From: Spartobacteria bacterium
GTDB taxonomy: Bacteria > Verrucomicrobiota > Verrucomicrobiia > Chthoniobacterales > UBA10450
Assembly (NCBI GenBank): GCA_003167555.1
Contig: PMSN01000025.1
Location: forward strand, 186,001-250,000
Direction: 5' to 3'
Length of the DNA: 64,000 nucleotides
The position numbers and the translations under genes are program-made. Numbering within the stretch: position 1 is the first letter of the stretch; every line of letters starts with the position of its first letter. Positions 7-54,506 of the stretch are shown here, in pieces. The notes beneath the pieces were generated by a model that had not been told where the DNA came from, did not search any database, and saw only the letters and a program-made list of their open reading frames with translations.

Positions 7-393
7 GTGCGCCGGGACCAACCATCCCCCGCTTTCAGCGATTTCGGCTGGGCCGCTCTCCTGTTTTTGACCTACCTCACGTTGCTGGCTTGGGACATCG
101 GAGCCGGCGCGGCCAGCGGAGCAGGGGATGAGTTAACCGCACTGCGCAACATCGCGCGCGTCTGCGCCTGGTGGACTTTGGGAGCTGGCGCGCTGGTTAT
201 TGTCGTTCGCTACTTGCGCTACGAGCATCGCTGGTTCCTGCTTAGCGGGGCGGCGTTGTTGCAGGTAACGCTGCATGGCCTTGTCGGTCTTACTTATCTG
301 CTGGCCGGCGTGATCTCGGTAGTCCTGGCCGCGGTCTGGATTGTCGTGGCTCATTTCGTCGGTTCGCGGACCGATCGGAGAAGCGAGACGTGA
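7..393 (+). CDS. small four-helix membrane protein, function unknown
   Basis: A 128-residue protein made almost wholly of hydrophobic segments: about four membrane helices near residues 12-31, 48-68, 77-98 and 100-118, with short charged loops. I recognise no family. Its stop overlaps the GTG start of the nine-heme cytochrome by 4 nt, so it is translated with the respiratory operon and may be a membrane subunit or assembly factor of it. It has no paired histidines of a di-heme cytochrome b. The start is a GTG six bases from the window edge, so the real gene may begin upstream. Confidence 0.6.
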   Translation: MRRDQPSPAFSDFGWAALLFLTYLTLLAWDIGAGAASGAGDELTALRNIARVCAWWTLGAGALVIVVRYLRYEHRWFLLSGAALLQVTLHGLVGLTYLLAGVISVVLAAVWIVVAHFVGSRTDRRSET

Positions 394-7502: not shown

Positions 7503-7936
7503 GGTTTACTTTCTCTTTTGGGTTGGTATAAGGCGGCAGGTTTCGGCGCGAGAGTGCGGACGTAATTAATGACCGGCCAGCGCTCCTCGTCGCTCATAAT
7601 GCGTTTAAATGTCGGCATTGGCCTGTGTCCCTCGTTCACTTTCCAGAACAGCGCGCCGTCGCTTTGCTCCCACAGTTCGGGACTGGAAAGATTGCCGGGG
7701 CGCTTTTCCAAATGCGCTGCCACTGGGCCGTCGCCCCTGCCTTCGGCGCCGTGGCAGGCAAGACACTGCCGCTCGTAAATTTTCTTACCCAACGCAATCG
7801 AAGTGTCGTTCACCGTAACGGGATTCTTTTTGGCCGCCGCACGGGCTGGTGCCGTCCATTTTTCGCGGCTGCTTTGCCCAAAGCTAAGAGCGCAGGCGAT
7901 GCCTATTGCAGTCAAGCTAATTATGAGTCTCTTCAT
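7499..7936 (-). CDS. periplasmic monoheme cytochrome c (class I), copy 1
   Basis: A 145-residue cytochrome c with a signal peptide (MKRLIISLTAIGIACALSFG), the shared linker, the heme site CLACH at 58-62 and a presumed Met ligand in HRPMPTF. I use the ATG at 7936 because it gives a clean signal peptide; a longer upstream start would add residues inside the NrfD gene. It overlaps the end of the NrfD gene by 20 nt and its own stop overlaps the next cytochrome, so the three are one translational unit. Together with copy 2 it provides two periplasmic one-electron carriers, comparable to the monoheme subunits of alternative complex III (comparison, not proof). Confidence 0.85.
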   Translation of the reverse strand: MKRLIISLTAIGIACALSFGQSSREKWTAPARAAAKKNPVTVNDTSIALGKKIYERQCLACHGAEGRGDGPVAAHLEKRPGNLSSPELWEQSDGALFWKVNEGHRPMPTFKRIMSDEERWPVINYVRTLAPKPAALYQPKRESKP

Positions 7937-9986
7937 GTATTGTTGCTTTCCGAATCTTAACGAGCTGAATGACGACAAAGAGATAGACGCTCCAGACGAT
8001 GGTTAGCATGGTGCCAATGGTGATAAGCAGCGCCAGCGGCGCATGAGGCGACCAGAGCGCGCGCGGAAACGGCTCTTCCTTAGGTAACACTTTGCTCGCG
8101 CCGTCGAACGTTTGCGTGGCTGTAGCTGCCGATTCCGGCGGCGATTTGATTTGAACGAGGATTTGAATTTTTCCTTCCGGACCACCCGGGATGTCGGCGG
8201 GGAAAGGCACCGCCACTGTGCCATCGGCTAGCGTGTCATCCTCTCCAAGTGTGAGGTTGCCAAACGTGCGTTCAACTTGCAGCACGACGTGCGAGCCTTC
8301 GATGGGTTTACCATCACGCGTGACCGTCGCGATAATGACTTTCTTGCCTTCCTCGATGCCGGTAGCAATGGTGATTTGAGGTCGAGAATCTTGGCCTTGC
8401 ACGTCCCCAGCCGAGACACGGTTTGCAGCGAGGAAAAGAACGCAAAATAGAATCACCATGCCCGTGGCCAAACTGCGGCTTCTTCGTCCGATGGCCGAGC
8501 GACCCGGCGGCGGTGTCCCGTCAATCTCTATCCCGATCTTCTCAGCGCCCACTGTCTCGACGCCCTCGATTGTTTCCCAAATCGAAACAATCGGGAAAAT
8601 TTTGGCGAAGAGAGTGAAGAGCAACAGGAAAACAGCGAATGCCCCGGCGGTGATCGTCCACTCGACCAAGGTTGGATTGTAATGGGGCGTCATGCCTGCG
8701 GCCTCTGTTGGGATATACGGGGTCAGCAAGGTTGGCACGATGATGAGGTAGCGTTTGAGCCACATTCCGATGTTGATCAGAATACTCGCAATCAGGAGGC
8801 GGCTGAGAGAGAGTTTGGTTGGGAACACAATGGGAATCATCAGCAGGACTGCTGGCAGCAAGAAGCAACCGCCCACTATCCCCCACCATGTGATGCCGTA
8901 GGGGCCTTGCCCCATGAGAACGTGGAGCAGGCGACGGTCAACTGCTTCACCACCATACCAAGCGGTAAGGTATTCGGACAAGGTGAAGTAAAGGTAGATT
9001 ACAGTCAGTGCCATGAGCAGCGCGCCAAGGGCGCGGAATTGGCGCATGGTGATGAGATTTTCCAAGTGATATGCTCTGCGGAAAACTGCCATCGCCACGA
9101 TGAGGGCAGCGGTCCCGGAGTAAATGGCGCCGACGACGAAGTAAGGGCCGAAAATCGTGCTGTGCCAGCCCGGGCGCAATGTCATCCCGAAAATCCAGGA
9201 GACGACCGTGTGCACCGACACGGCCACGGGAATAATAATTACCGACATGGCGTGCATGGCGCGTTCCAGCAGATGCTTTTGTTCCGGCGTGCCGCGATAG
9301 CCGAGCGAAGCCGTGCGATAAAACCGCTGGAGCAATGATGGCTTTTGTCCCACCGAGGTCCTTTTTGCCAGGATCGCTAGGTCAGGAATCATCGCGACGT
9401 ACAAGAAGGTAAAGCTGCCGGCGAGGTAAGTGCAGATGGAGCACACATCCCAAAGCAGGGGGGAATTAAGCCGGCCATGAACGATGACATTGAGAATGCG
9501 ATCAATTCGCCCCATGTCGATCAAGACCATGGGCGCGCCGACCATCAGGGCGAATACGGTGATTGCTTCGGCCACGCGTGTAACCGAGCGGCGCCACTCC
9601 GCGTTGGTGACCCGTAGGATCGCAGAGATCAACGTGCCGGCGTGGCTGATGCCGATGAAAAAAACGAAGTTGGTAATATAAACGCCCCACGAGACGTACT
9701 CGCGCATGGCGGTCACTTCGAGTCCATTGGCCAGTTGATAGCAGTATGCCACCACAGCGGCTGCGATGACGATCAGCAACGAGCCGATCCAAATTTTCCC
9801 GGCGCGGCCCGGCGCGCCCATGGTTTGTTCCAGCTGAGCGGTGATTCTTTGCGCTAAACTTTCCTGACCAGTTTCGCCGCCGCTCCCGACATCGCGCCGA
9901 TCGATGGCTGCAACTTGTTCCACGCTTCCCCATGCGGTTTCGCGCCCGGCCGTTTCCGCTTGAGTCGAAGTGTTAGGCACGTCCAT
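7917..9986 (-). CDS. NrfD/PsrC-family membrane subunit with C-terminal periplasmic Ig-like domain
   Basis: A 689-residue membrane protein. After a hydrophilic N-terminus (about 1-60) there are about ten helices of the NrfD/polysulfide-reductase type, the quinone-interacting subunit of ACIII, Nrf and Psr complexes. Around residues 535-640 is a soluble, strand-rich segment (GKKVIIATVTRDGKPIEG...) resembling an Ig-like or carboxypeptidase-regulatory domain. It is flanked by helices near 500-520 and 650-675. NrfD proteins are normally about 320-480 residues, so the extra module is a fusion. It begins 15 nt after the Fe-S gene ends, as expected for the Fe-S plus NrfD pair. The complex would exchange electrons between the quinone pool and the two cytochromes encoded next; direction is unknown. 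Confidence 0.85.
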   Translation of the reverse strand: MDVPNTSTQAETAGRETAWGSVEQVAAIDRRDVGSGGETGQESLAQRITAQLEQTMGAPGRAGKIWIGSLLIVIAAAVVAYCYQLANGLEVTAMREYVSWGVYITNFVFFIGISHAGTLISAILRVTNAEWRRSVTRVAEAITVFALMVGAPMVLIDMGRIDRILNVIVHGRLNSPLLWDVCSICTYLAGSFTFLYVAMIPDLAILAKRTSVGQKPSLLQRFYRTASLGYRGTPEQKHLLERAMHAMSVIIIPVAVSVHTVVSWIFGMTLRPGWHSTIFGPYFVVGAIYSGTAALIVAMAVFRRAYHLENLITMRQFRALGALLMALTVIYLYFTLSEYLTAWYGGEAVDRRLLHVLMGQGPYGITWWGIVGGCFLLPAVLLMIPIVFPTKLSLSRLLIASILINIGMWLKRYLIIVPTLLTPYIPTEAAGMTPHYNPTLVEWTITAGAFAVFLLLFTLFAKIFPIVSIWETIEGVETVGAEKIGIEIDGTPPPGRSAIGRRSRSLATGMVILFCVLFLAANRVSAGDVQGQDSRPQITIATGIEEGKKVIIATVTRDGKPIEGSHVVLQVERTFGNLTLGEDDTLADGTVAVPFPADIPGGPEGKIQILVQIKSPPESAATATQTFDGASKVLPKEEPFPRALWSPHAPLALLITIGTMLTIVWSVYLFVVIQLVKIRKATIHEETHN

Positions 9987-10001: not shown

Positions 10002-10958
10002 TCAGCTTTGTGCTGATTCGCCCGGCGCTGGATACATTCGGTTCTTCGGCGCTAGGTAAAAAAGGCGCGGTTCGGTCCCCAGCTCCTCCATGAAACGGTA
10101 GCCGGCGCGATCTCTCAGCAGCTTGCTCAGCCGCTCGGTCTCGCCTTTGGAATTGGTCACAGCATCTTCGAGTTGATCGCCGAAATAAATCGCGCCCATC
10201 GGACAATTACCGGCGCAGTGCGGCAGATGTCCCATCTCCAGCATCTCCGGACAGTAATCGCATTTCTCTACAGTGCCGATTCTTCGCGGAGATCCTGTCT
10301 CGGGCGAATAGGCCATCTTGAGAGCTTCCGGCGAATTTGTCGGCGGGCCCCAATTAAAATAGCGGGTCGAGTAGGGGCAGGCCGCCATGCAGAAGCGACA
10401 GCCGATGCAACGTTCGTTGTCGATCAAGACGATACCGTCCTGTCGCTTAAACGTTGCATCGACCGGACAAACTTTTGTGCAAGGCGGATTGTCACAATGA
10501 AAACAGGGCTTGGGAAGGAAATACGGCGTCGTGTCTTTGCCGTCCTGCATGTTGAAAACTCGGATCCATTCGCGGTCGACCGGCGTGTCATGCGCTTTCT
10601 GACAGGCCCTGGTGCAAGCCTTACATCCGTCGCATTTGGCCAAGTCGATCACCATGACCCAGTTGCGGCCGGGCATGCCGATACGCACTTGTGGATCGCT
10701 CCGCGGACGACCGGGATGGACGTGCGTCATTGAATCGCTCTCCACTTGGATCAGCTTCCCCTCCACCGTCATCGCCGCGACGGTCTTGCCAGACGACATG
10801 GGTTTTGTGGGAGCGGCGCTTGCCTTCTCAACGACCGCGATTCCTGCGACGGCGGCGCCGGCTGCCATGGTCACGCTTCGCATGAAGTTGCGGCGCGACA
10901 GGCCGCCGCAGCTTTGGAATTCTCCTTTGTCCGCCGCCGCCTGGTTGTCGCCGTTCAT
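10002..10958 (-). CDS. Tat-exported four-cluster Fe-S electron transfer subunit (NrfC/PsrB/DmsB type)
   Basis: A 318-residue protein with a twin-arginine signal (SRRNFM, R22-R23, then an Ala-rich hydrophobic stretch). Four cysteine groups hold [4Fe-4S] clusters: CDGCKACTRAC, CFHCDNPPC with CPVDA, CIGCRFCMAACP, and CDYCPEM with HCAGNCP. This is the canonical partner of NrfD proteins, passing electrons along a chain of clusters outside the membrane. The catalytic molybdopterin subunit normally found with it is absent from the operon. I choose the ATG at 10958 because it places the conserved TTGCG-N16-TTG element 44 nt upstream, as in five other genes here; longer starts (11012, 11051) would run into that element. 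Confidence 0.88.
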   Translation of the reverse strand: MNGDNQAAADKGEFQSCGGLSRRNFMRSVTMAAGAAVAGIAVVEKASAAPTKPMSSGKTVAAMTVEGKLIQVESDSMTHVHPGRPRSDPQVRIGMPGRNWVMVIDLAKCDGCKACTRACQKAHDTPVDREWIRVFNMQDGKDTTPYFLPKPCFHCDNPPCTKVCPVDATFKRQDGIVLIDNERCIGCRFCMAACPYSTRYFNWGPPTNSPEALKMAYSPETGSPRRIGTVEKCDYCPEMLEMGHLPHCAGNCPMGAIYFGDQLEDAVTNSKGETERLSKLLRDRAGYRFMEELGTEPRLFYLAPKNRMYPAPGESAQS

Positions 10959-11001
10959 GGCAGTCAGGTTAGCATCGGCGTGAAACAGGCCTAACCGGTT
11001 C

Positions 11002-11028
11002 TTGCGAAACATTCCTCGTTTCTTGTTC
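11002..11028 (-). promoter_or_regulatory. TTGCG-N16-TTG direct-repeat site, Fe-S/NrfD operon
   Basis: On the plus strand TTGCG starts at 11002 and the second TTG at 11023, a 21-bp repeat. The inner GAAAC-7 nt-GTTTC part is also an inverted repeat. It lies 44 nt upstream of the Fe-S start codon. Five more sites with the same geometry precede nifJ, the LOG gene and three universal stress genes. The next 10-12 bases towards the gene (GGTTAGGCCT) also match those at the site at 23427. Confidence 0.65.
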
Positions 11029-11325: not shown

Positions 11326-12344
11326 TTACCGCGAGAGCGGCGCAGTGGTTCTGCCCGGCCTCGGATAAGTGGAGAGCGCACGCATGTACTGCGCGCGTTC
11401 GAAGGCGCTCGCGTCCGGGCAATGTTCCTGGCTCATGCTGCCTTTGAGTTGCTCGACTGATTCGTATTCGTGCTCCTCCATCCATTGCAGCATTTCACGT
11501 TCGATCACCCGGATGTGATCGATGCCGCGCCGCAACAAGACCGAGCACAACATCGTGACGTCCGCGCCCGCCATCAGCATTTTCAACGCGTCGGTGGCGC
11601 GATGAATCCCACTCGTGGCAGCGAGGTTCGCGCCGATCCGTCCATGCAGAAGGGCGATCCACCGCATCGGCAGTCGCATCGCCATCGGCGTGCTCAGAAG
11701 AATGTTGGGTGAAATCTCCAGCGTCTCCAGTTCGATGTCCGGCTGGTAGAAACGATTGAAAAGCACCAGCGCGTTCGCGCCCGCCCGGTCCAGGCTCCGT
11801 GCGAAGCGCGCCAGATTCGTGAAGTAGGGCGAGAGTTTCACGGCCACCGGAATTTTTAATTGCGCTTTCAACGACGCCAGGATCGTGAGGTAGCTCTCCT
11901 CAATGTCCTCTCCGGCGAGGTCGGGATCGGTTGGAACAGAGTAGATATTCACTTCGAGCGCATCCGCGCCCGCTTGCTCGATCGCGCGAGCATATTTTGT
12001 CCAGCCGCCGAACGTCGCGCCGTTCAGGCTGCCAATGATCGGAATGTCCACGGCCGCTTTCGCTTTGGCGATGTGTTCGACATACGCTTCGGGACCGACC
12101 TGGAACGCCGGCGGTTCAGGAAAAAAGCTGACCGCCTCCGCAGAGACTTCTGTGTTCTGCTCGAGATAGAAGTGCAGCTCGTGATGATCGCGGCGCAACT
12201 GCTCTTCGAACAGGGAGTGAAAAACAATCGCCGACGCGCCCGCATCCTCCATCCGTTTGATATTGTCGATGTTTTCCGAAAGCGGCGACGCCGAAGGGAC
12301 AAGCGGCGTCCGTAGTTTAAAGCCGAGATAGTTGGTGGATAGCT

Positions 12345-12348
<4 letters not shown>
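11326..12348 (-). CDS. dihydroorotate dehydrogenase-like flavoprotein
   Basis: A 340-residue TIM-barrel FMN protein of the class 1 DHOD/PreA type: an N-terminal LGFKLRTPLVPSASPLS, IIGSLNG, DALEVNIYS, VAVKLSPYF and a phosphate-binding C-terminal part (TSGIHRATDALKMLMAGAD). It starts within the nifJ stop (4-nt overlap). Proteins of this family are commonly encoded beside pyruvate:ferredoxin oxidoreductase, where their substrate is not settled. The gene pairing suggests a redox role linked to PFOR rather than pyrimidine synthesis; true PyrD activity cannot be excluded from sequence alone. Confidence 0.85.
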
Positions 12349-16010
<3,662 letters not shown>

Positions 16011-16054
16011 AATGACCAACGTAGCGGTCTCCGTGCGGCACCGATGTACCCCGG

Positions 16055-16081
16055 TTGCGTTTTGCTGTGCAGTTATTGCGC
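16055..16081 (-). promoter_or_regulatory. TTGCG-N16-TTG direct-repeat site, nifJ operon
   Basis: TTGCG at 16055 and TTGCGC at 16076 on the plus strand, again exactly 21 bp apart, with CTGTGC between them about one helical turn in. It is 45 nt from the GTG start of nifJ. This copy lacks the inner GAAAC/GTTTC inversion, which suggests that the TTGCG direct repeats are the conserved core. Confidence 0.6.
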
Positions 16082-16632: not shown

Positions 16633-19338
16633 TTACAGTTGGATTGTCGCGCGCCAGTCGTTGTTTGAATCGCGTTCCAGAATGAATCCGACTTCTTCGC
16701 TCACGCGTTTCATCCGGAAGTTATCGCCGAGGATGTGGCCGACAATTTGGCGCACCTTCTCTTTGCGGCCGACTTCAACGAGTAACTTCAAAAGCTCGGT
16801 CCCGAGTCCTTTGCCCTGCCAGGGATCTCCGACCAGGATCGCGAACTCAGCTTCGTCGCGACTGTGCTCCTTGATCAGACGCCCCACGGCGAGGAGCCGG
16901 GGTGGTTCGCCACGTTTCTTTTGCTCCACCACGAAGGCCATCTCGCGGTCGTAATCGACGAAGCAGGTGCGGCGCAGGCGTGCGTGCATGGTGCGTTGCT
17001 TGAGGCTGAACGCGCTGAAATAGCGCAACTGCACGCTGCGCTCGGAAAGCGTTTTGTGGAAGTAGATCATCAAGGGCTCGTCCTCGGGGCGGATCGGACG
17101 AATGGTTACCAGCAGGTTGTCGATCTTCCATTTTCGGATGTACTCGGCCGGATAGGGCCGGATCACTGAACGCGGCAAATCTTTTTCGTCAGCGCGCGGA
17201 TCGTGCAGGAGCATGCGCGCATCGAGAGCAATGATCTGGTCGGTGGAAACGAGCAACGGATTGATATCGATCTCCTTGATCCGCGGTTGCTCGACGAGGA
17301 GCTGGCTGAAGCGCACCAGCAATTCCTCGAGCGCCGCCAGGTCGATCGCGCGTCGTCCGCGGAATCCTTTCAGCGCCGTGTAAATCTGGGTTCGTTCCAT
17401 CAAGCGCCGTGCCAGGGTGCGATTGAGCGGGGGAAGTCCAAGCGCGCGGTCCTTGAAGACCTCGACAAAAATTCCGCCCGCGCCGAAAAGAAGCACGGGC
17501 CCGAACTGCGCGTCGATGCTGCTGCCCAGGATCAATTCGTAGCCGTGCAGCGCGATCATCGGCTGGACCGTGACGCCCAGAAACGCACCGGCGTGGGCGC
17601 GCGCCGATTTTTCGATCTCCCGATACGCGGTGCGGACCGCGCCCCTTCCGCGCAGGTTCAGCTTCACGCCGTTCACGTCGCTTTTGTGCATGATGGTTTC
17701 CGAATGAATCTTGAGGACGACGGCGCCGTCGATTTTTCCGGCGAGTGCGACCGCTTCCTTTTCGCTTTTCGCAACGCGCGTCTTCACCACGGGAATTCCA
17801 TAAGCCGCGAGGAATTCTTTCGCCTCCACTTCGGTCAGCAACGTGCGCCCGCGCGCGCTCGCACCGGCGATGATTTTCCCGGCGGCGCTCCGGTTGATGT
17901 TCCCGGCTTCACTCAAGGCGGGCGTCTCGTAGAGCAGATCGAGGTTCCGCGAGAAGCGCCACATGGCGCAGAACGCGCGCGCGGCCGCGTCGGGATATTC
18001 GAAGGTGGGGATGTTCGCGCCATCCAGAATGGCGGCGCCGGGCGCCACGCCCGCGCCGCCCATCCAGCTCGCCAGGAATGGTTTCGTTTTCAGATCGCCG
18101 AACGCGCGCAATCTTTCCGCGGTGGCGCTCGCATCGGTCACGGCCTGCGGCGCCAGGATCGTGAGCAGGCCGTCGTTGTTCTTGTCGCGCGCGACAATTT
18201 CGATCGCCTGCGCGTAACGTTTCGCATCCGCGTCGCCGAGAATGTCGACCGGATTGCCGCGGCTCCAGGGCGCGGGCAGGAGTTTGTTCAAGGCTGCGAA
18301 ACTTTCCGGCGATAATTCGGCCAGCGTGCCGCCGCACTCGATGAGCGCATCGGTGGCGAGGACGCCGGGCCCGCCGCCATTGGTGACGATGGCGAGCCGC
18401 GGACCGGACGGCCGCGGTTGTTTGCCGAGGAGCTGGGCGAGATCGAACAGCTCGGCGATTGTCTCCACGCGCAACACGCCCACGCGCCGGAAGGCGGCGT
18501 CGAGCACGTCATCACTCCCGGTCAGCGCGCCGGTGTGCGAAGCGGCGGCTTTGGCCGCGGCCTCGGTGTGACCGACTTTGATGACAATGATCGGCTTCGC
18601 CAAGGCGACTTCGCGCGCGGCGGAAAGAAACGAGCGGGCGTCGCCGATCGATTCCATATAAAGCAAAATGCTGTGCGTGCGCGGATCGTCCCCGAGGTGG
18701 TAGATCAAATCGCCCCAGTCCACGTCGAGCATCGAGCCGACGGAAACAAACGCGCTGAATCCAACATGGTTCGACAAGCTCCAATCGAGGATGGCGGTGC
18801 AGAGCGCGCCGCTTTGACTGATGAATCCGATGCTGCCGGGGAACGCGAGCGACCGGGCGAAGGTCGCGTTGAGTCCGATGCGCGGTAGCATCAAGCCAAC
18901 GCAATTCGGTCCGATGATCCGCATCTGTCCGCGGCGGGCGAGAATCTGTTTCTCCAATTCCGCTCCGGCCGGCCCGACCTCCTTGAATCCCGCCGAGATG
19001 ATGACCGCGCCTTTGACTCCGGCGGCGGCGCATTCTCCGACGATTGCCGGCACGGTGACCGCCGGGGTGGCGATGACGGCAAGATCGATCTCTCCTGCGA
19101 CGTCGCTGATTCTCGGGAACGCTTTTCGCCCGAGAACGCTGCTCCGACTCGAATTGACCCAGACGACGCGACCTTCAAACGCCTGGAGATTCTCGGCCAG
19201 GGCTCGACCGACGCTTCCCGGCGTTTCGCTGGCGCCGATCACGGCGATCGTGCGCGGCGCAAACATGGTCATGAGGTTTGAGCGCCGCGGCTGCCGCATT
19301 GGGCCGGGGATTTTCTTGTCCACTTTCGCCGTCTTCAT
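16633..19338 (-). CDS. ADP-forming acyl-CoA synthetase fused to GNAT acetyltransferase (Pat/AcuA-like)
   Basis: A 901-residue protein. The N-terminal CoA-binding Rossmann domain ([20 protein letters not shown]) is followed by succinyl-CoA-ligase-like domains ([32 protein letters not shown]), an ATP-grasp domain (about 490-700) and a C-terminal GNAT domain ([17 protein letters not shown]). Two roles are known for this architecture: ADP-forming acetyl-CoA to acetate conversion with ATP yield, and lysine acetylation that silences acetyl-CoA synthetase. The phospho-relay His is not assigned with certainty. I use ATG at 19338, which has AGGA 4 nt upstream; a longer start would overlap the LOG gene. 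Cotranscribed with LOG and downstream of a shared regulatory site. Confidence 0.85.
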
Positions 19339-19423
19339 GATTCCTGCGTGGTCAGTTCGATCATGGACCGGCGACGAATGAGTTGACGAGATCGCAGCGG
19401 GCAATTCTTTCGCCGGGGAATTT

Positions 19424-20293
19424 CTAGCCGTTCTTCTGCAAGGCTTGCTCTCCAAGCCACGGCAAGTGGCGGCGAATCCGGGTCGCGAGCCTCAGACCGA
19501 AGGGTTCGATGGCTTTGCTCCGAATGTGCGCGATCGCGTCTTCCACTGAATCGGTCGCGTAGACCAGGCTCACGTCGGTTTGATTGATCATTCCGAACTC
19601 CGCCATCTTGTTGATGAAATCGATCAGTTCCTTCCAATAGGCGGTTCCCATGATGACAATGGGGAAGTTCTTGATCTTTCCGGTTTGAATCAACGTGAGC
19701 GCCTCGAACAACTCATCCAGGGTGCCGGCGCCGCCGGGCATGACGACGAAGGCGTAGGAATACTTAATGAGCAGCGTTTTGCGGACGAAAAAGTAATGCA
19801 TGGTCACGCTACGATCGAGGTAGGCATTTGTCGTCTGCTCAACGGGAAGCTCGATGCCGCAACCAATCGAGCGGCCCCCGACTTCTTTCGCCCCGCGATT
19901 GGCCCCTTCCATAATGCCCGGCCCTCCGCCGGTCATCACCGTGAAGCCGAGCCGGGCGATCGCCGCTCCCATTTGCCGCGCCAGCGCATAGTAGGGACTT
20001 TCTTCTTTCACGCGGGCGGAACCAAAGACCGTGACACAAGGGCCGACAAAATGAAGCACGCGAAATCCGCGGAGAAAATCCCGGACGACGCGCAGGACCG
20101 TGACGAATTCATCAAGACGCGAATGCGGACCTTCGAGAAAGATTTCATCGGCGCGCTCTGGCGGCGTAACCAGCGCCGATTCCGCCGGGGCGCGGGTTCC
20201 AAGAGTTGAAGTGTTCCGCCCGGCCCGAGTCGATAAGTCGAAAGAGATTTTTGGTCTCCGTCTGAGCAAAGACGAGAGAGTTACTTTTTTCAT
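19424..20293 (-). CDS. LOG/TIGR00730-family nucleoside-monophosphate phosphoribohydrolase
   Basis: A 289-residue Rossmann-like protein. The family signatures are [16 protein letters not shown] and [12 protein letters not shown], which form the nucleotide site and hold the catalytic Arg/Glu pair. LOG proteins cleave ribose-5-phosphate from (cytokinin) riboside monophosphates, and bacterial members often act on AMP-like purine nucleotides. It has about 80 extra N-terminal residues. It is first in a two-gene unit with the acyl-CoA synthetase (about 85 nt gap) and carries the shared direct-repeat element 44 nt before its ATG. Confidence 0.87.
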
Positions 20294-20336
20294 GCTTCAA
20301 AGATGTCTATTCCGCTGCAGAATGACTCCGCCGGCC

Positions 20337-20363
20337 TTGCGAAAGGCAGGCTATTTTTTGCGA
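20337..20363 (-). promoter_or_regulatory. TTGCG-N16-TTG direct-repeat site, LOG operon
   Basis: TTGCGAAA at 20337 and TTGCGA at 20358 on the plus strand, 21 bp apart, 44 nt from the LOG start codon. It lies in the 84-bp gap between the end of the lactate dehydrogenase gene and LOG, so LOG-acyl-CoA synthetase is probably its own transcription unit. Confidence 0.65.
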
Positions 20364-20377: not shown

Positions 20378-21370
20378 TCATGAACTGGCAATCTGATTGG
20401 CAAGCGACTGGCCGCTTTCGAAACTGGTGATGTTGCCGATGGTCGTCGCCGCAATATTTTCGACGGCTTCCCGAGTGAAAAACGCCTGATGGCCCGTGAC
20501 GATCACATTTGGAAATGTGAGGAGCCGACTAAAGACGTCATCACTGATAATCAAGCCCGAACGGTCCTCGAAGAAGATGTGTTCTTCCTCCTCGTAAACA
20601 TCGAGGCCGAGGTAGCTGACCCGCCCGCTCTTCAGCGCATCGATCACCGCGACGGTATTGAGGAGCGCGCCGCGGCTCGTGTTGATGAGCATCACGCCGT
20701 CGCGCATCTTTCGCAGCGCGCTCGCATCGATCATGTATTTGTTCTCCGGCGTAAGTGGACAATGCAACGTGATGATGTCGGATTGGGCGAGCAGTTCATC
20801 CAGGCTCAGATAGCGCGCGCCTAACGACCGACAGGTCTCATTTGGAAACGGATCAAAAGCCAGGATTCGACAGCCGAACCCAGCCAGGATTTGGCCGACG
20901 ACCATTCCTATTTTTCCAGTGCCGATGATGCCCGCGGTTTTGCCGTGCAAATCGAAACCGAGCAGACCTTCGAGCGAAAAGTTGCCTTCGCGCACGCGAT
21001 TGTAAGCGCGATGCAATTTGCGATTCAGCGCCAGCATCAAACCAACGGTGTGCTCCGCCACGGCGTGAGGCGAATAGCCGGGGACGCGCACGATGGTGAG
21101 GGTGTGCTGCGCGGCGGCTTTTAGATCGACGTTGTTGTAGCCGGCGCAGCGCAACGCGATGAGTCGCGTCCCTCCATCCGCGAGACGCTCGAGCACCGTT
21201 GCATCAAGATGGTCGTTCACGAAGATGCAGACGGCTCCGAATCCCGCCGCGAGCGTGGCCGTTTCCAGATTCAACTGGGGTTCGAAGAAATGCAGTTCGT
21301 GCCGGGAGGCGTTCGCCGCGTCGAGAAACTCGCGGTCGTAATTCTTTGCGCTGAAAACGGCGACTTTCAT
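20378..21370 (-). CDS. ldhA: D-lactate dehydrogenase / D-2-hydroxyacid dehydrogenase
   Basis: A 330-residue NAD-dependent D-2-hydroxyacid dehydrogenase. It has [16 protein letters not shown] (GxGxxG plus acceptor strand ending in D), the signature region [27 protein letters not shown] with the active-site Arg, Glu in DVYEEEEH, and the catalytic His in [11 protein letters not shown]. The GH-x-A-FFT ending and the DVYEEE segment fit fermentative D-lactate dehydrogenases (LdhA). It would re-oxidise NADH by reducing pyruvate. I use ATG at 21370; it starts 4 nt after the PfkB stop, so the two genes are cotranscribed. Confidence 0.87.
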
Positions 21371-21374
21371 TGCT

Positions 21375-22301
21375 TCACCCGATCTGTTGAAACAGTCGCT
21401 CCGCATCTTCACGACGGCAAAGCCCAGTGCCCGGCATCATCACCGCCGCCGTCCCCGCGGCGATGCCGAAACGAACTGCGTCACGTAACGAATAATCGCG
21501 TGCCAGCCCCAGCACGATGCCGGCGACCATGCTGTCGCCCGCGCCCACTTTGCTGCGCACCGGCACCGTCGGTGAACGCAGACGTTCGCAACCGGCCGGC
21601 GATGCGACGAGCGCGCCAGCCGCGCCTAACGAGACGACAACGACTTCCACTCCGCCATTCGCGACAATTCCCGCAGCAGCCTTCTCCTGTTCGTTCTCTC
21701 CTTCCAGATCGCCGCCGACAAGAGTGCGCAATTCGCGCAGGCTCGGTTTGATCAGGAACACTCCGGCGTGCACTGCCGCCGAGAGCGCAGGGCCCGAAGT
21801 GTCGAGAATAAAACGGCTGCCGCGCTCGCGCACAATGCGCGCGAGCTGAGCATAGAAGTCGTTAGGCACGCCCGGCGGGAGGCTTCCGCTGGCCACGACC
21901 AGTTCAGGCATCACCTCCATTTTGCCAATCCGTTCCAGCGCCCCGCGCCATTCTTTTTCCGTGAGGGTCGGCCCGGGCATCACGAAGCGATACTGCTGCC
22001 CGTTCGCGGTCTCGAGGATGGTGACGCTCTCCCGCGTCCATCCTCCGATGGCGACCGCTTCCTGCTCGACCCGCGCTTCATCGAGCAAGGCGCGAAGGAC
22101 GATTCCGGTCGGGCCGCCGCAAAAATGCAAGGCGCGCGCGTGGCCGCCGAGCTTATGGATCGCGCGCGCCACATTCAGGCCTCCGCCGCCCGGTTCGTTG
22201 CAGGCGGGGCCGCAACGCAGCTTGTGTTCGGGAAAAACATTCTCGACCGAGGAACTCATGTCGATGGTGGGATTGAGTGTGAGCGTGAGGATTTGTTTCA
22301 C
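21375..22301 (-). CDS. pfkB: PfkB-family hexose-phosphate kinase (6-phosphofructokinase 2 / 1-phosphofructokinase)
   Basis: A 308-residue ribokinase-fold kinase. It has an N-terminal [10 protein letters not shown], the substrate loop [27 protein letters not shown] and the catalytic signature [10 protein letters not shown] (Asp as base). The NPTID start and GGGGLNVAR are typical of the PfkB/FruK/LacC branch. Between a Usp gene and a lactate dehydrogenase gene, a glycolytic role (fructose-6-phosphate phosphorylation) is most likely; 1-phosphofructokinase or tagatose kinase are alternatives. It follows the Usp gene by 54 nt with no site of its own. PfkB next to a Usp is also seen in the mycobacterial DosR regulon. 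Confidence 0.87.
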
Positions 22302-22355: not shown

Positions 22356-23384
22356 TCAGACCGGGATATGGCGGCAATGACTTGGCACGACGAGGACGGG
22401 ACAATGCGCCAGCCGCACGAGTTGCTCCGCCGTGCTGCCAATAAGGACGTGCCTAAGCCCCGTGTATCCGTGAGTCGACGTAATCACCATGTCGATGTCC
22501 GGGTGTTCGGTTCGTTCGATAAGCTTTTCTATCGGCGTGCCGACCGCGACTTCGGTCTCGGCTGAGATTCCGACGAGCGGAAGGAAGTTCACCATCTCGT
22601 CCAATTTATCCGCTGCGGACAGGCGGGCCGTTTCGACGAGCTCTGGCCAGTCAGGCGGAATAAAAGTTGGGTCCGATGCCGTATGGTTAAGCGGAGAGGT
22701 GACGTTCATGAGCACAAGATCCGCGCCGACTCGTGTGGCGAAAAACGATGCGTATCTCGCGCCTTCTCTCGCGCATTCCGAGAAATCGACCGGCACCAGG
22801 ATTTTTTCGAGGACGATTCCTTGGGCCGCGGTCTTGATCGGTCCTCGCGTTGCCTCGCGCACGACGAGGACCGGACAATGCGCGTGACGAATGACCTTTT
22901 CGGCCGTGCTGCCGAGCATGAGATGTTTCAGTCCGGTGCGGCCGTGCGTGGCGATCACCACGAGATCGGCGTTTAGTTTGTCCGCCACCGCGCAAATTTC
23001 CGGAGAAGGCCGGCCGCTGCGGAAGTGGCAATGCTGCGGGCGCACGTCGACGGAAAACCTGCGCTGCATTTCGTTTTTCAAACGTCCGGCGATTTCCCGA
23101 TCTGAGAAAAGCTCGATCGCGGGATCCGAGAAAAGCTCCGGCGTGTTGACCAGGGACTGAAACCGCGGCTTGCCCTCGTAGACGTAAACGAGATGAAGGG
23201 AGGCGCCAAAGCGCCTGGCCAATGCCAGCGCGAAATCAACAGCCTGGAAGGATTGTCGCGAGAAATCGACCGGTACGAGAATGGTTTGGATCTCCAGCGA
23301 ATCGCCGCAGAAAAACTTCGTCGGTGAATTGGATGGCCGATCCAACCCAGGCGGTAGGCCCAGAGCAGCGATGTTGGCTTTCAT
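22356..23384 (-). CDS. tandem-domain universal stress protein A
   Basis: A 342-residue protein with two UspA domains. Each opens with hhhPVDFS (TILVPVDFSRQS and KILVPVDFSECA) and ends with an ATP-binding loop: STHGRTGL-like ATHGRTGLKHLMLGSTAE and STHGYTGLRHVLIGSTAE (G-2x-G-9x-G-S/T type). ATP-binding Usps act in persistence and energy stress. It has a 30-residue N-terminal extension. It is the first gene of a Usp-pfkB-ldhA unit, with the shared element 43 nt upstream. Confidence 0.9.
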   Translation of the reverse strand: MKANIAALGLPPGLDRPSNSPTKFFCGDSLEIQTILVPVDFSRQSFQAVDFALALARRFGASLHLVYVYEGKPRFQSLVNTPELFSDPAIELFSDREIAGRLKNEMQRRFSVDVRPQHCHFRSGRPSPEICAVADKLNADLVVIATHGRTGLKHLMLGSTAEKVIRHAHCPVLVVREATRGPIKTAAQGIVLEKILVPVDFSECAREGARYASFFATRVGADLVLMNVTSPLNHTASDPTFIPPDWPELVETARLSAADKLDEMVNFLPLVGISAETEVAVGTPIEKLIERTEHPDIDMVITSTHGYTGLRHVLIGSTAEQLVRLAHCPVLVVPSHCRHIPV

Positions 23385-23426
23385 GCCAGTAAACTATTCC
23401 CGGTCTGAAAGAGGCCTAACCGGCGC

Positions 23427-23453
23427 TTGTGAAATAGTTACCGTTTCTTGTCC
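23427..23453 (-). promoter_or_regulatory. TTGTG-N16-TTG direct-repeat site, Usp-pfkB-ldh operon
   Basis: TTGTGAAA at 23427 and TTG at 23448 on the plus strand, 21 bp apart and 43 nt before the Usp ATG. The neighbouring CCGGTTAGGCCT-like bases (minus strand) match those beside the site of the Fe-S/NrfD operon, so these two promoters are especially alike. Confidence 0.6.
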
Positions 23454-23615: not shown

Positions 23616-24716
23616 TCAGGCCGAATGCGATTCGCGAAACTTGTTTGTCCGGCGTCGCTCCGGCAAAACGTGCCGGAGGACTTTTCGGTTCCTTTTCGTG
23701 AGGAGATCGCTCGGAATGAGTGACCGTTTTGCAAAGATTCCGCGTGGTCGCCTCGCTTTGGCGCCGCGCGAGAGCGATTGCTTCCTTGTTTCCGGATGCG
23801 AAGGCGCAACCAGAACCGGGCAATGCGCATGGCGCACGACGAGTTCCGCGGTGCTGCCGAGCAACACATGACTCAATCCGGTCCGGCCGTGTGTGCTTGT
23901 GATGATGAGATCCACGCGCTCCTTCTTCGCGAAGGTGCAAATCTCGTCCACCGCCTGACCGAGCAAAATGGCGGTCTCGAAGTTCCGGCCGCCGAGTTTT
24001 GCGAGCCGAACAAACTCCTGCATTTGTCGCTCCGCCTCGTTGCGCGCCATCTCTCGATATTTAGGGAGGTCGTACATGGCGTAACCATCGGCGATGAAGG
24101 AAGGGCCGAGATCGACCACGTGAAGGAGGACAATCTTGGCGGCGAATTTGTCCGCCCATTGCATCGCGTAGCGCAGTCCTTCCAGCGAGCAGCCGGAAAA
24201 ATCCACCGGCACAAGAAGTTTGTCGAGGCCGTGCGCTGGCTTTGTGTCGTGCACACTCTTCCCAAATTGTCGCGCGACGAAAACCGGACAAGGCGAATGC
24301 TGCACCACGCGCTCCGCCGTGCTGCCGAGAAATAGGTGTTTGAGACCCGTGCGGCCATGCGTGGAGGTGACGATCAAATCAGCTCCGATCTCGCGGGCGA
24401 GCTGGCAAACCTCGTCGAATGCCGGTGTTCCCTTTATAAGGTGACACCTCTGGGAAGGTATCCCGTGGTGGTGCCCTAGCGCGTCCAGCCTGCGCCCGAG
24501 CGCGCTCACCTCTTCTTCGGGCAACGTGATCACTGGCATGGCCGGTGGCATTCCCGGCGCCATGAACCCCACCGGATAGGAAACTTCACAGGCGTGGACG
24601 AGGTGAAGGGCCGCGTCGCAGCGCCGGGCGATATCTTTTGCGACTTCGATGGCATCGATCGACATCTTCGAGAAATCGATGGGCACGAGAATTTTTTTGA
24701 TGCTGAGCTCTTTCAT
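23616..24716 (-). CDS. tandem-domain universal stress protein B
   Basis: A 366-residue protein with two UspA domains: KKILVPIDFSKMS with STHGRTGLKHLFLGSTAE, then KLLVPVDFSGCS with STHGRTGLSHVLLGSTAE. Both keep the G-2x-G-9x-G ATP loop. The first domain has a long Pro/Met-rich loop (GFMAPGMPPAMPV). About 60 residues of Arg/Lys-rich tail follow the second domain and look unconstrained; they may be a read-through extension after loss of an earlier stop. It has its own copy of the shared site at 45 nt. Confidence 0.88.
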   Translation of the reverse strand: MKELSIKKILVPIDFSKMSIDAIEVAKDIARRCDAALHLVHACEVSYPVGFMAPGMPPAMPVITLPEEEVSALGRRLDALGHHHGIPSQRCHLIKGTPAFDEVCQLAREIGADLIVTSTHGRTGLKHLFLGSTAERVVQHSPCPVFVARQFGKSVHDTKPAHGLDKLLVPVDFSGCSLEGLRYAMQWADKFAAKIVLLHVVDLGPSFIADGYAMYDLPKYREMARNEAERQMQEFVRLAKLGGRNFETAILLGQAVDEICTFAKKERVDLIITSTHGRTGLSHVLLGSTAELVVRHAHCPVLVAPSHPETRKQSLSRGAKARRPRGIFAKRSLIPSDLLTKRNRKVLRHVLPERRRTNKFRESHSA

Positions 24717-24760
24717 ACTTGCAGCTTCGTCCAGAAAGGCGGTTGGAGGCTCGCCGCCGT

Positions 24761-24787
24761 TTGCTAAAAACCGCGCGTTTTTTGCGC
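24761..24787 (-). promoter_or_regulatory. TTGCT-N16-TTG direct-repeat site, second Usp gene
   Basis: TTGCTAAAAA at 24761 and TTGCGC at 24782 on the plus strand, 21 bp apart, 45 nt from the Usp start codon. Further upstream (24819-24930, minus strand) is a stop-free stretch encoding VTAALGYVFGYIGALAW but no start codon; I do not call a gene there. Confidence 0.62.
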
Positions 24788-24942
24788 AGCGAAAAACTCT
24801 GCGCCCGTCGCCTTCGAGCTAGGCTCGGTGCATTTTGTTCCAGGCAAGCGCGCCGATGTAACCGAAGACGTAGCCCAGCGCCGCGGTTACAACGATGTCG
24901 CGGCTACCCCGCTCGCTCCATTCGCCGTGGCGAACCTCTGCC

Positions 24943-25818
24943 TCAGGCCGCTTTGTTCTTGCGCGGCGGGCGCGAGTGCAGTTGGGCGCGGAATTCGGTG
25001 GGGGACTGGCCGAAGACGCGCTTGAACATGCGATTGAATTGCGTGAGCGATTGGAACCCGACGTCGTAGGCGATCTCGCTGATGCGGCGGCTCGGATTCA
25101 AGAGCAGGGTCTTGGCGTTCTCCAATCGGACCCGGGCGACGTAGTCGGTAAACTTGAGGCCGGTGGTTTTCTTGAAGACTTTACAGAAGTGAAACACGCT
25201 CGCGCCGGAGGCTTGCGCGACGGCCGCCAGCGACAGCGGCTCCATTTTATGTTGCTCGATGTATTCGCGCGCTTTGCGCACCAGCGGCGGCTCGGCGTTC
25301 TGTTGCTCGAGCACGATCTGATTGATGAGGGCCGAAAGTTGCTCGGCAAAAAATGTGAGCAGCCGCACGGTCGCGCTGTATTTGTCTTTCGGGATGATCG
25401 GCGTGGTCTCCCATGCTTTGCGGATGCCGCCGGTAAACGGCACGCCGAATTCCTTCAGCTTGGCGGCGGCGCGGGTCTTGTCGGATTGAATCGCGGAGCG
25501 GCGCAAAACCTGGCCGATCCGGAGAAAGCCGATTGTTTCCTGCCCGAGTCGCACGGGCACCGCCGTCTCGGTCAAACCGAATGGGCAGGTCTCGGTGCGT
25601 GCTGTGAGGCCGGTGTGCTGGATAATATCCGCATGCGATTGCAAACAAACCGCCAGCGTGGCCGGCCGCTTCGCCAGCAACGCGCAGAAGGGATTCTCGT
25701 TGGTCTTGTCGTGGTGCTCGAGCTGCCAGAATTCGAGCGGGCGCAAGGTCAGCGGCAACCCGGTCGCCTTGGTGAAGACATTCTCGTAGTCGCGAAACAA
25801 GCGCGAGCGGAGCAACAT
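24943..25818 (-). CDS. AraC-family transcription regulator with PocR sensory domain
   Basis: A regulator of about 291 residues. The N-terminal half is a PocR-type ligand domain (DYENVFTKATGLPLTL, then NPFCALLAKR, ETCPFGLTETAVPV and IGFLRIGQVL). It is followed by two AraC helix-turn-helix motifs (LSLAAVAQASGASVFHFCKVFKK and ISEIAYDVGFQSLTQFNRMFKR), with the family signature ending in FGQSPTEFRAQL. The start is uncertain: ATG at 25818 lies just before the PocR domain, and an upstream CTG or an extension into the preceding gene is possible. It is the third gene of Usp-cNMP-AraC. AraC proteins bind direct repeats about 21 bp apart, the spacing of the six shared sites, so it is the leading candidate regulator (inference). 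Confidence 0.85.
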   Translation of the reverse strand: MLLRSRLFRDYENVFTKATGLPLTLRPLEFWQLEHHDKTNENPFCALLAKRPATLAVCLQSHADIIQHTGLTARTETCPFGLTETAVPVRLGQETIGFLRIGQVLRRSAIQSDKTRAAAKLKEFGVPFTGGIRKAWETTPIIPKDKYSATVRLLTFFAEQLSALINQIVLEQQNAEPPLVRKAREYIEQHKMEPLSLAAVAQASGASVFHFCKVFKKTTGLKFTDYVARVRLENAKTLLLNPSRRISEIAYDVGFQSLTQFNRMFKRVFGQSPTEFRAQLHSRPPRKNKAA

Positions 25819-25945
25819 TTCGACGAGTTGCTTGTTCGCGGTGGTCGCGGAATTCGTTTCGGAGTTGCTCAGACACGAACGTTCTCGCGCGGCGCGTTGC
25901 GTGTCAACGCGCTTCCGGCCAAGGCCGCCGCGCGCTTTCCGTGAG

Positions 25946-26512
25946 TCACCGCATTTCCGTTCGACTGCAACAAGGAGCCTCGATATCCAATTCCTGGTCC
26001 ATGAAGGGCGATTCGAGAACAACGGGCTGCAAGGCGGTTTCCTGCGAGTCAACTGCCAGCATCTTGGTGCGCGCGGCTTGCAGGCGTTTGATCATGACCG
26101 CACTCATGCGTTTGAACAGTTCGTAGCCGAGCGCGTGATCGCGCTCGCAGTATTCGCGCAAGATTGTGCCGTAGAAAAAAATCGCCGTCGTGGGCTCGAC
26201 CGCGCGGGCGGTGAAATGCCACACGTAAGGCGGAAACATCCAGGACCAGCCGAGCAGATCGCCCGCGCCGATCGTATCGATCACCACCGGATCGCCCAGC
26301 GCGCCGCTCGACTCCAGGATCAGCTTGCCGGTTTCAATCAAGTAGAAGCGGTTTGCGATTTCGCCTTCGCGGAAGATCACCTGTCCTTTCTTGAACTGCA
26401 CGACCATGGCGCAGTCGGAGAGCAGCGCCAATTGCTTGTGATTCATTCCCGCGAGAAACGGGTGCAATGCCACCCGCGTGGCCATTGGTTCGATTTCAGT
26501 GTGAGCGTTCAT
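25946..26512 (-). CDS. cyclic-nucleotide-binding domain protein without DNA-binding domain
   Basis: A 188-residue protein with one cNMP-binding beta-roll: HPFLAGMNHKQLALLSDCA, the KKGQVIFREGE turn, FYLIETGKLIL and GAGDLLGWSW. A long C-helix follows (ERDHALGYELFKRMSAVMIKRLQAARTKML). In Crp/Fnr proteins a winged helix follows; here the chain ends about 30 residues later, so it cannot bind DNA that way and may regulate a partner. It has no N-terminal Fnr cysteine cluster. A role modulating the co-encoded AraC protein or an acetyltransferase, as cAMP does in mycobacterial Pat, is speculation. It starts 28 nt after the single-domain Usp. Confidence 0.82.
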   Translation of the reverse strand: MNAHTEIEPMATRVALHPFLAGMNHKQLALLSDCAMVVQFKKGQVIFREGEIANRFYLIETGKLILESSGALGDPVVIDTIGAGDLLGWSWMFPPYVWHFTARAVEPTTAIFFYGTILREYCERDHALGYELFKRMSAVMIKRLQAARTKMLAVDSQETALQPVVLESPFMDQELDIEAPCCSRTEMR

Positions 26513-26540
26513 TGATTTTTCCTCTGGTTCTTGTGCTGCG

Positions 26541-27059
26541 TTAACAAAATTCGTGTTCCTTTTCGCGCACGACCAGGACCGGGCAGGGCGCCGCGCGCAC
26601 GACCCGTTCGGCGGTGCTGCCGATGCAGAAATGTTTCCAGCCGGTGTAGCCGTGCGTGGCGATGATGATCAGGTCGGCGTCACCTTCTTTCGCCGCATCG
26701 ACAATCTCGTGCGAAGGAACGCCCGTGCGCATCTTCCAGCGCGGGCGTTCGGGATTTCCGTTAGTGCTCGAGGCAATGAGCGCCCGCAGATTCTTTTTGG
26801 GCTCGGAGAAGTCGGTCTCGGGAAAGGAGGGCATCTCGGGAAAGGCGGGGATGGCGGCGAACCTGGTCGAGGGCGCAGGATCCACGACGTAAAGCAGGGT
26901 GACTTCCGCCCCGAACTCTTCCGCAAAGCGAAGCGCGTAGCGGAATGCATTTTTTGACGCCGGCGAAAAATCGACCGGCACCAAAATCTTTTTAAGCCGC
27001 CATGTGGGATGCGCGGCCGCGTCGCGGACTCTGTGACTCTCAAAAGTCTTTGCTGTCAT
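26541..27059 (-). CDS. single-domain universal stress protein
   Basis: A 172-residue Usp: KKILVPVDFSPASKNAFRYAL, VTLLYVVDPAPSTRF and the ATP loop ATHGYTGWKHFCIGSTAERVV followed by PCPVLVVRE. I use ATG at 27059 (GGAG just upstream) rather than a TTG at 27131, because the longer version would run over the shared regulatory site. First gene of the Usp-cNMP-AraC unit. Confidence 0.87.
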   Translation of the reverse strand: MTAKTFESHRVRDAAAHPTWRLKKILVPVDFSPASKNAFRYALRFAEEFGAEVTLLYVVDPAPSTRFAAIPAFPEMPSFPETDFSEPKKNLRALIASSTNGNPERPRWKMRTGVPSHEIVDAAKEGDADLIIIATHGYTGWKHFCIGSTAERVVRAAPCPVLVVREKEHEFC

Positions 27060-27102
27060 GCTCCGACTATGAGGCGATTGCGCGCGCCGGGCTCGTCCGC
27101 CT

Positions 27103-27129
27103 TTGCGAAACGTTGTGCGTTTTTTGTGC
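27103..27129 (-). promoter_or_regulatory. TTGCG-N16-TTG direct-repeat site, Usp-cNMP-AraC operon
   Basis: TTGCGAAACG at 27103, TTGTGC at 27113 and TTGTGC at 27124 on the plus strand. This copy shows three TTGYG units with 10-11 bp steps, suggesting that the site is read on one face of the helix. It lies 44 nt from the Usp ATG. The candidate regulator gene is in this same transcription unit, so autoregulation is implied. Confidence 0.65.
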
Positions 27130-27208
27130 AACGCCGACCGCGCTGTTCAGCTATTACGAACGGCCCGCAGGGCCGTGGCTGCAGCGTGCGCGCCTTTGAG
27201 TTCAAAAT

Positions 27209-27241
27209 GGGAAGCGCAGGGTGTGAAAACCCTGCGCTCCC
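27209..27241 (-). terminator. strong hairpin terminator after the small CWRC gene
   Basis: A 13-bp stem (GCGCAGGGT/ACCCTGCGC extended by GGGA/TTCCC with one bulged base) and 6-nt loop, 20 nt past the stop of the small CWRC gene on the minus strand and followed by a short TTTT. It would isolate the CWRC mini-gene from the Usp operon. Confidence 0.55.
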
Positions 27242-27260
27242 ATGTAATGATCCGACTGGA

Positions 27261-27455
27261 TTACATGTAATTCAGCGCACCGCAGCGCCAGCACGTAAAC
27301 CAACTCCAGTTGCCGTGCACGTAATTGCCGGCCCCATCGTTCCAGCACGTGTAAAGCAACCGATGGCGGCGGCCGCCCACTTCAGCACCGTCCGCATCTT
27401 TCTCTGTGCCGGCTCCACCTTCTTTGTCCGGCTTCTTGCCTGTTTCGTCAGCCAT
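27261..27455 (-). CDS. small cysteine-motif protein, CWRC family, copy 1
   Basis: A 64-residue protein of unknown function. Residues 1-30 are charged, Gly/Lys/Asp-rich and surely disordered. Residues 33-64 form a compact conserved end: LLYTC, then NDGAGNYV, W-x-W, and FTCWRCG followed by a Tyr near the C-terminus. Three cysteines (C-x17-C-x2-C) could hold a metal, but no fourth ligand is certain. An AAAGGAAATAAGAG leader gives a plausible ribosome site, and its own hairpin terminator follows. A paralog lies at 47780. I recognise no named family. Confidence 0.75.
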   Translation of the reverse strand: MADETGKKPDKEGGAGTEKDADGAEVGGRRHRLLYTCWNDGAGNYVHGNWSWFTCWRCGALNYM

Positions 27456-53879: not shown

Positions 53880-54506
53880 AACGTCACCTCCAGATTTTCT
53901 GCCGGATAATTGAGAAAAACCGACTCGACTCACTCATTGCCTGCGCGGGATTGGCGTTCATGGGTAAGGCTGATGATCGCATCGCCTTCGGTCCGACAGT
54001 ACAATGAACCAGGGGAATCGGTTTGGTTTGCACGGTAATCGCCCTCATTTTTAGACGGGACGCGGAAACGTGTCGAGATTTATTTGGTAACGACACATGT
54101 TTGTAACCTGCGTGGTTTTCCGCCACAAAATTGCGCTCGTATGCCGTCGAGCTACGACCAGGCCTGGCGTCTACGCGTATTTACTGCATGGCCGATACCG
54201 GCTAAAAACGCCCACACTCCCTGTCTCCCAGCAGCGGCATCACAAAAAGGTCCCGGAGGGGTGTTCGACCCAGGAGAACTCAACTCTTCTTGAGCCGATT
54301 TTTGCGCCAAATCAGCCGCAAACAACAAAAGGGGAACGGACCCCCTAGGCTCCACCAATTTCGCGACGCGAAATTCATGCAGTGAAGAGAGGGATGAGAA
54401 CGCTGCGCAAGATTCGCCCACGGAATGACAAGAAAAGAAGAGCGGCGGGACGGCACTGCTCATTAGGGTTCGGGCAAGCGCAAATTAGCGGAGAAGGAGT
54501 TTCACC
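53880..54506. other. 627-bp intergenic region
   Basis: Between the divergent beta-helix gene and the small exported protein gene. It must contain both promoters and includes the right 31-bp direct repeat. Short open frames here have no coding character. I see no tRNA, riboswitch or further repeat. Confidence 0.6.
54325..54355 (+). repeat. 31-bp direct repeat, right copy
   Basis: Perfect copy of 49606-49636. It lies in non-coding DNA, on the far side of the beta-helix gene promoter. See the paired entry for its internal hairpin. Confidence 0.75.

Follow-up and report, generated by a model that had tools for sequence, protein, structure and literature searches.

Gene organization of the locus

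The window, a stretch of 64,000 nucleotides, belongs to a Spartobacteria genome of 4.2 Mb in 29 contigs that is 98% complete. In it, three genes on the reverse strand follow one another closely: a universal stress protein (Usp) of 172 amino acids (26541..27059; PF00582, E=2e-35), a CRP-fold (cNMP_binding) protein without a helix-turn-helix (HTH), in which PF00027 is the only domain (25946..26512), and a PocR/AraC transcriptional regulator (24943..25911, PF10114 + PF12833). The start codon of the regulator, at about 25900, is uncertain, and no in-frame ATG was seen at the position where its homologs start. Since the intergenic gaps are only about 28 bp and 35-70 bp, the three genes probably form one Usp-cNMP-AraC operon. 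A sigma-70 scan of positions 24700-27300 gave nothing promoter-like, and a terminator scan of the same interval found terminator-like sites at chance level only.

The genes that follow, also on the reverse strand, encode two double-Usp proteins (23616..24716 and 22356..23384, both from domain search), a PfkB-family sugar kinase (21375..22301; PF00294), a D-2-hydroxyacid (lactate-type) dehydrogenase (20378..21412; PF02826/PF00389), a LOG-family (Lysine_decarbox) protein (19424..20293; PF03641) and an NDP-forming acyl-CoA synthetase with a GNAT domain at its C-terminus (16633..19455; domain and family profiles). They are succeeded by pyruvate:ferredoxin oxidoreductase (PFOR, 12345..16019; TIGR02176, 1821 bits), a dihydroorotate-dehydrogenase-like protein (11326..12348; PF01180) and a 4Fe-4S protein (10002..10958, domain search), after which comes NrfD (7917-9986).

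The regulator and the CRP-fold protein

The preliminary description of this DNA had recognised a PocR/AraC regulator next to a cNMP protein devoid of a DNA-binding domain, and the domain profiles bear this out. The PocR domain of the regulator scores 61.6 bits against a cut-off of 23.9, its C-terminal double HTH (PF12833, HTH_18/HTH_AraC, E=1.7e-24) places it in the AraC/XylS family, and AraC 2k9s is among its Foldseek matches. Its named relatives are Verrucomicrobia/Spartobacteria MAGs, several of whose names point to soil-depth samples; orthologs share 61-91% identity within the family, and homologs across the class mostly 40-51%. An alignment of 25 proteins shows three invariant cysteines, and the PocR domains in a sample from the phylum have them too; among the rows aligned, the triad thus belongs to PocR in general and is no marker of this particular regulator. 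As a sign of an oxygen-responsive Fe-S regulator, these cysteines would be only a lead.

The AlphaFold2 model of the CRP-fold protein (pLDDT 78) consists of a CRP barrel and a long helix; helix 126-156 and a tail of low confidence close the chain, and the C-terminal HTH of CRP/FNR factors was not found. The Glu and Arg of the phosphate-binding cassette, by which a cyclic-nucleotide receptor is recognised, are both missing in all 17 homologs compared. Indeed, CRP Glu72 is replaced by Trp in 17/17 and CRP Arg82 falls in a gap, and the cassette has given way to the invariant aromatic stretch GWSW-F-P--W-F-A-A. The best PDB match of the sequence profile is 3mdp (Gmet_1532), in which a similar Pro-Tyr stretch is aligned, and Foldseek gives this structure a target-normalised TM-score of 0.86, the highest among the 50 matches listed. 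Gmet_1532 resembles our protein in being a stand-alone cNMP fold with no HTH in the solved chain and a similar cassette region, although the identity in the structural match is 29%.

These observations bear on the idea that a second messenger, cAMP or cGMP, acts on the regulator through the cNMP protein. A true receptor gating the regulator would fit the CRP fold seen both in the sequence and in the model, as well as the linkage of the two genes in 12/18 family and 5/24 class loci. However, the loss of Glu72 and Arg82 makes cyclic-nucleotide input unlikely by the known contacts, and both the aromatic stretch in place of the cassette and the similar Pro-Tyr stretch of 3mdp, the closest solved structure, point away from such a receptor. 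We thus regard this reading as improbable, and of the two-input controller that had been envisaged, the half that finds support is the PocR/AraC regulon, not the second-messenger input.

Two side observations concern the same fold. The cNMP protein (25946-26512) aligns with a section of an NCBIfam model, that of the family 2B encapsulin shell, at a score far short of the cut-off. A second cNMP-domain protein, 42% identical, is encoded elsewhere in the source genome (G000:C6:173967-174380), within another cluster of operator-bearing genes.

A 36-bp operator shared by dispersed genes

In all 12 family loci where a Usp gene lies beside the regulator, the Usp upstream regions have a block of fixed length in common. 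This operator is 36 bp long and reads CAA-N18-CAA-N5-GNNGAGC, with a 21-bp direct repeat. A position weight matrix (PWM) was made from the 12 Usp-upstream sites of other genomes, the window being held out, and above 10 bits it gave 43 matches (12 of them the seed sites) in the window and the 20 regions surrounding PocR/AraC homologs of the family, as against a single match in reversed sequence. When 30 sites from outside the window were aligned, the two CAA words, whose distance is exactly 21 bp, were invariant or nearly so, as were the G and the AG of the third block; the spacing of 21 bp, which had been put down to AraC-type direct half-sites, is therefore real and fixed in these 30 sites. 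A calibrated profile, R1, built from this alignment identifies 25 sites in the source genome at E<0.03, 16 of them at E<=1e-3, and five of the 25 lie in the window.

The preliminary description spoke of six sites in this stretch and gave no list, so that we rebuilt the six with the PWM (27126-, 24784-, 20360-, 54408+, 23450- and 11025-). Operator 1 (27091..27126, reverse strand; 48.3 bits, R1 E=2.1e-7) has its first CAA 67 bp from the Usp ATG; the Usp-cNMP-AraC unit does carry a site, as had been stated, and autoregulation is predicted. Operator 2 (24749..24784, reverse; 34.7 bits, E=6.9e-7) precedes the first double-Usp gene, whose ATG is at +68, and operator 3 (23415..23450, reverse; 14.2 bits, E=0.0014; ATG at +66) the Usp-PfkB-dehydrogenase genes, of which the second double-Usp gene comes first. 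Operators 4 (20325..20360, reverse; 20.6 bits, E=0.017) and 5 (10990..11025, reverse; 11.8 bits, E=0.0083) stand before the LOG-family and CoA ligase genes and before the Fe-S/NrfD respiratory cluster, respectively, with the ATG at +67 in both cases. With R1 E<=0.02 these five are solid, whereas the sixth (54408..54443, forward strand), at 19.1 bits by the PWM yet at a genome-wide R1 E=0.7, is doubtful. PFOR has only a weak candidate operator (16043..16078, reverse) that is sub-threshold in the source genome; a similar element (10.1 bits) precedes PFOR in one relative, at locus L045.

Simpler descriptions of the site were tried and discarded. Generic half-site patterns (GCRCAAA-N-GCAAA with mismatches) matched mostly noise, a short pattern gave four matches where shuffled sequence led us to expect 5.07, hence no enrichment, and a loose regular expression allowing four substitutions was unsuccessful as a site finder. 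Among the patterns tried, only the 36-44 bp profile separated signal from noise. A distinct variant site, CAAGAACTGCAC-GTTTTTC-CAA, was seen at L145:1969, L147:2043 and L149:1830, in three genomes that have no ortholog of the regulator, and no recognised regulon gene follows it.

Position of the operator and predicted promoter geometry

Measured from the first CAA, an ATG-started ORF of at least 100 amino acids begins at +60..85 for 20 of the 25 genome sites, compared with 6.5% of random positions, and at +64..70 for 12 of them, compared with a random expectation of 1.8%. Five of the 25 have no such ORF within +40..110, one of the five being followed by a GTG-started ORF at about the usual distance. 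The scanned loci contain 61 distinct sites above 20 bits with an ATG-ORF of this length within +45..110; in 41 the ATG lies at +64..72, the mode being 67 (n=19).

Anchored on the ATG, these 41 operator-preceded genes have A at -11 in 78% and T at -7 in 73%, while the two letters occur together in 6/63 control ORFs. A Shine-Dalgarno-like (SD) 4-mer precedes one of the 41 genes and 6 of 63 other long ORFs; because it is rare before the latter too, we rejected SD absence as a hallmark of the regulon, and the fixed-position -10 preference is more specific to operator genes. The operator-preceded genes look leaderless. For the Usp gene, the column preference points to CATAGT (27066..27071, reverse strand), six bases ahead of the ATG, as the putative -10 hexamer, and since this hexamer would occupy -12..-7, the transcript may start at the ATG itself. 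If this start is assumed, the half-sites have positions of about -67 and -46, and the GNNGAGC block spans roughly -38..-32. AraC occupies these same positions on its activated promoter, and its family is characterised by 21-bp direct repeats that overlap -35. The half-sites and a block predicted to lie over -35 match the arrangement of a class II AraC activator.

Predicted targets and the nature of the signal

The target set includes Usp proteins, the PfkB/D-2-hydroxyacid dehydrogenase genes, the NDP-forming CoA ligase, a metal P-ATPase and the Fe-S/NrfD complex. Outside the window, operators precede genes for three Usp proteins, a heavy-metal P-ATPase, a CBS protein, two Zn-dependent alcohol dehydrogenases, an enzyme of the PPDK/PEP synthase type, uroporphyrinogen decarboxylase, a GltD-like oxidoreductase and a cupredoxin, and also for a TPP-dependent decarboxylase of the indolepyruvate/pyruvate type that scores below the curated cut-off. 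A transketolase-like gene is weakly linked, given that it starts 411 bp past the nearest site. Some targets, classed as PEP-CTERM-like, adhesin-like or hypothetical, are at odds with fermentation or stress; off this theme outside the window are a DUF6600 protein of 931 aa and ORFs of 1412 and 291 aa, and at C6:166404, C12:159413 and C23:77230 no obvious gene was found. The target set as a whole nonetheless supports the fermentation/stress regulon that had been suspected.

The FNR/ANR and DosR regulons switch Usp genes, PfkB and pyruvate and fermentation enzymes together. The grouping is the same here, but the operator and the regulator family are different, and no CRP/FNR HTH protein was confirmed in the genome. 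HTH_Crp_2 has three matches there, one of them over the cut-off; two, including the latter, fall in ORFs that are MarR-like by eye, and the third is a 390-codon frame. As two of the three look MarR-like, the absence of a CRP/FNR factor is likely, though not proven.

As to what the PocR domain may perceive, PocR has been predicted to sense simple hydrocarbon derivatives, going by the title of Anantharaman and Aravind (2005) as it appears in PMC4207490 and PMC1592074. An alcohol, an aldehyde or a diol, that is a small fermentation product or substrate, could then be the inducer in place of redox state or oxygen, and the alcohol dehydrogenases and the decarboxylase among the targets would agree with a substrate-induced regulon of this kind. 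However, the breadth of the targets, which comprise stress, metal ATPase, haem synthesis and respiratory modules, resembles an oxygen/redox regulon, and three cysteines are conserved in all PocR domains aligned. We consider substrate sensing a serious possibility, albeit somewhat less likely than not. It is more speculative, and in our opinion rather unlikely in all its parts, that in Verrucomicrobiae without CRP/FNR-type regulators a PocR/AraC protein with a cysteine-bound metal or Fe-S cluster replaces FNR as the global low-oxygen activator, with a DNA-blind CRP-fold co-sensor that has an aromatic pocket and with largely leaderless mRNAs made from one rigid promoter.

Linkage and co-occurrence across genomes

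Around the orthologs of at least 61% identity (18 loci in 17 genomes, L032-L049), 12/18 have the cNMP gene no more than about 2 kb from the regulator, and the same number, 12/18, have the Usp gene there. At 24 loci of the class, taken with flanks of 1.5 kb, the regulator is adjoined by cNMP in five, Usp in three and the CoA ligase in three; in 20 class loci with larger flanks, a metal P-ATPase follows the regulator in three and PFOR is nearby in one.

An ortholog (at least 61%) is present in 18 of the 83 family genomes, and R1 finds sites at E<=1e-3 in 21. Sites occur in 15/18 genomes with the ortholog and in 6/65 without it (Fisher p=2.8e-9). Among 385 class genomes, 26 have R1 sites, 19 of which are outside the family, and a PocR/AraC homolog is found in 17 of these 19 compared with 143 of 354 others (p=3.9e-5). 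Both p values are too small, because the genomes are related and the tests ignore phylogeny. The co-occurrence of the two genes, raised in the preliminary description as a point to check, holds: the cNMP gene is present in 28/83 family genomes, comprising 18/18 with the ortholog and 10/65 without. The non-family sites precede CoA ligase, URO-D, HypE-, HemA- and cytochrome-like genes (the last three named from our own reading of the translations) or adjoin the regulator gene, and several have no recognisable gene after them.

A second group of PocR/AraC proteins, about 40% identical, lies near an Hsp20-like gene, named likewise from our reading of its translation (L022, L023, L026, L028-L031 and L153). 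Nine sites in 8 of the 14 loci examined show the same operator skeleton in other letters; with this Hsp20-like neighbour and its own variant operator, we rejected the group as a member of the same regulon. The direction of the association agrees at three levels, the family, the class and the Hsp20-linked paralogs.

There are exceptions. The preliminary description took the occurrence of sites in genomes without the regulator as an argument against the pairing, and this is marginally the case, in 6/21 site-bearing family genomes and 2/19 outside the family. Two of the six, G052 (80% complete) and G074 (71%), have a site before a regulon gene and lack the ortholog, and in the other four (G040, G059, G065 and G066) no recognised regulon gene follows the sites; among the class genomes, G344 and G415 carry a site but lack a PocR/AraC homolog. 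Conversely, G023, G025 and G069 keep the regulator with no site at E<=1e-3. A single weaker site in G022, together with a cNMP gene fragment (L083:5763-5867) before the regulator, suggests decay of the regulon. One could argue from the eight genomes with sites alone, and from the three with the regulator alone, that an unrelated factor reads the operator and has the AraC gene merely as one target among others. The 21-bp direct repeats overlapping -35, an AraC-family signature, and the Hsp20-linked paralogs with the same skeleton in different letters speak against it, and we hold this to be very improbable.

Hardly more probable is that the operators are bound by an HTH-only AraC paralog, an open frame of about 130-200 codons, with PocR/AraC as a mere regulon member or an upstream regulator. 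The second HTH of this paralog is nearly the same as that of PocR/AraC, and it occurs in 19/83 family genomes, 17 of which also carry the ortholog (17/18), so that within the family the two proteins are inseparable. However, at E<=1e-35 the paralog is found in seven genomes of the class sample, all of them in the family, and in 0/19 of the site-bearing non-family genomes, 17 of which do carry a PocR/AraC homolog together with the operator. In the source genome, a copy of the paralog (G000:C12:174277-174594) is divergent from the TPP decarboxylase gene, and a related HTH (C12:133809-134084) lies inside a 710-codon open frame. The comparative evidence argues that PocR/AraC is probably the cognate activator of the operator-bearing genes.

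Proposed mechanism and relation to known systems

Taken together, we judge it probable, and the best explanation overall, that a regulon for fermentation, low oxygen and stress has PocR/AraC as its master activator. The analysis documents the operator with its spacing and position, the set of targets, the linkage of the genes and their co-occurrence; the mechanism that we infer is as follows. A PocR/AraC dimer would bind the two direct half-sites 21 bp apart and, in the manner of class II activators of the AraC type, recruit RNA polymerase, with the GNNGAGC block over -35, and transcripts would probably begin at or beside the ATG. By activating its own operon, the regulator would make the response self-reinforcing. 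The signal would be received by the PocR domain with its three invariant cysteines. The CRP-fold protein appears to have no HTH route to DNA and no longer to possess the canonical contacts for cAMP; its most likely role is to modulate the regulator through protein contact or another ligand.

In the AraC/XylS family, class II activators such as AraC and XylS use two direct half-sites 21 bp apart that end over -35. The present system differs from them in its PocR sensor, its many dispersed targets and a nearly identical operator position. The PocR protein of the pdu/cob system likewise joins a PocR sensor to an AraC DNA-binding domain, but the genes controlled here are dispersed stress and fermentation genes, with no pdu genes seen among the targets, the regulator is paired with a CRP-fold protein, and its score against the NCBIfam PocR equivalog (NF047788) is 85.4 where the cut-off is 500. 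We found no account of the regulon or of the PocR/AraC-cNMP pair in the literature searched, including passages of PMC4207490, PMC11784639 and PMC1592074, which is weak evidence of absence. What we describe looks like an undescribed global regulon formed from known kinds of parts (PocR, AraC and the CRP fold). As predictions, the regulator, the operator and the regulon are well supported by the comparative evidence. Fermentation, stress and electron-transfer genes appear to be switched on together via one DNA-binding protein, and relatives across the class seem to have the same switch in common.

Verrucomicrobia abound in soil, and little of their gene regulation has been mapped. The present work offers for them a concrete predicted global regulon of about two dozen targets, together with its regulator, its 36-bp operator and a promoter geometry, and with traces in other members of the class. 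It would make testable the role of a CRP-fold protein that lacks a DNA-binding domain beside an AraC regulator, and a switch to fermentation that apparently operates without a CRP/FNR-type regulator.
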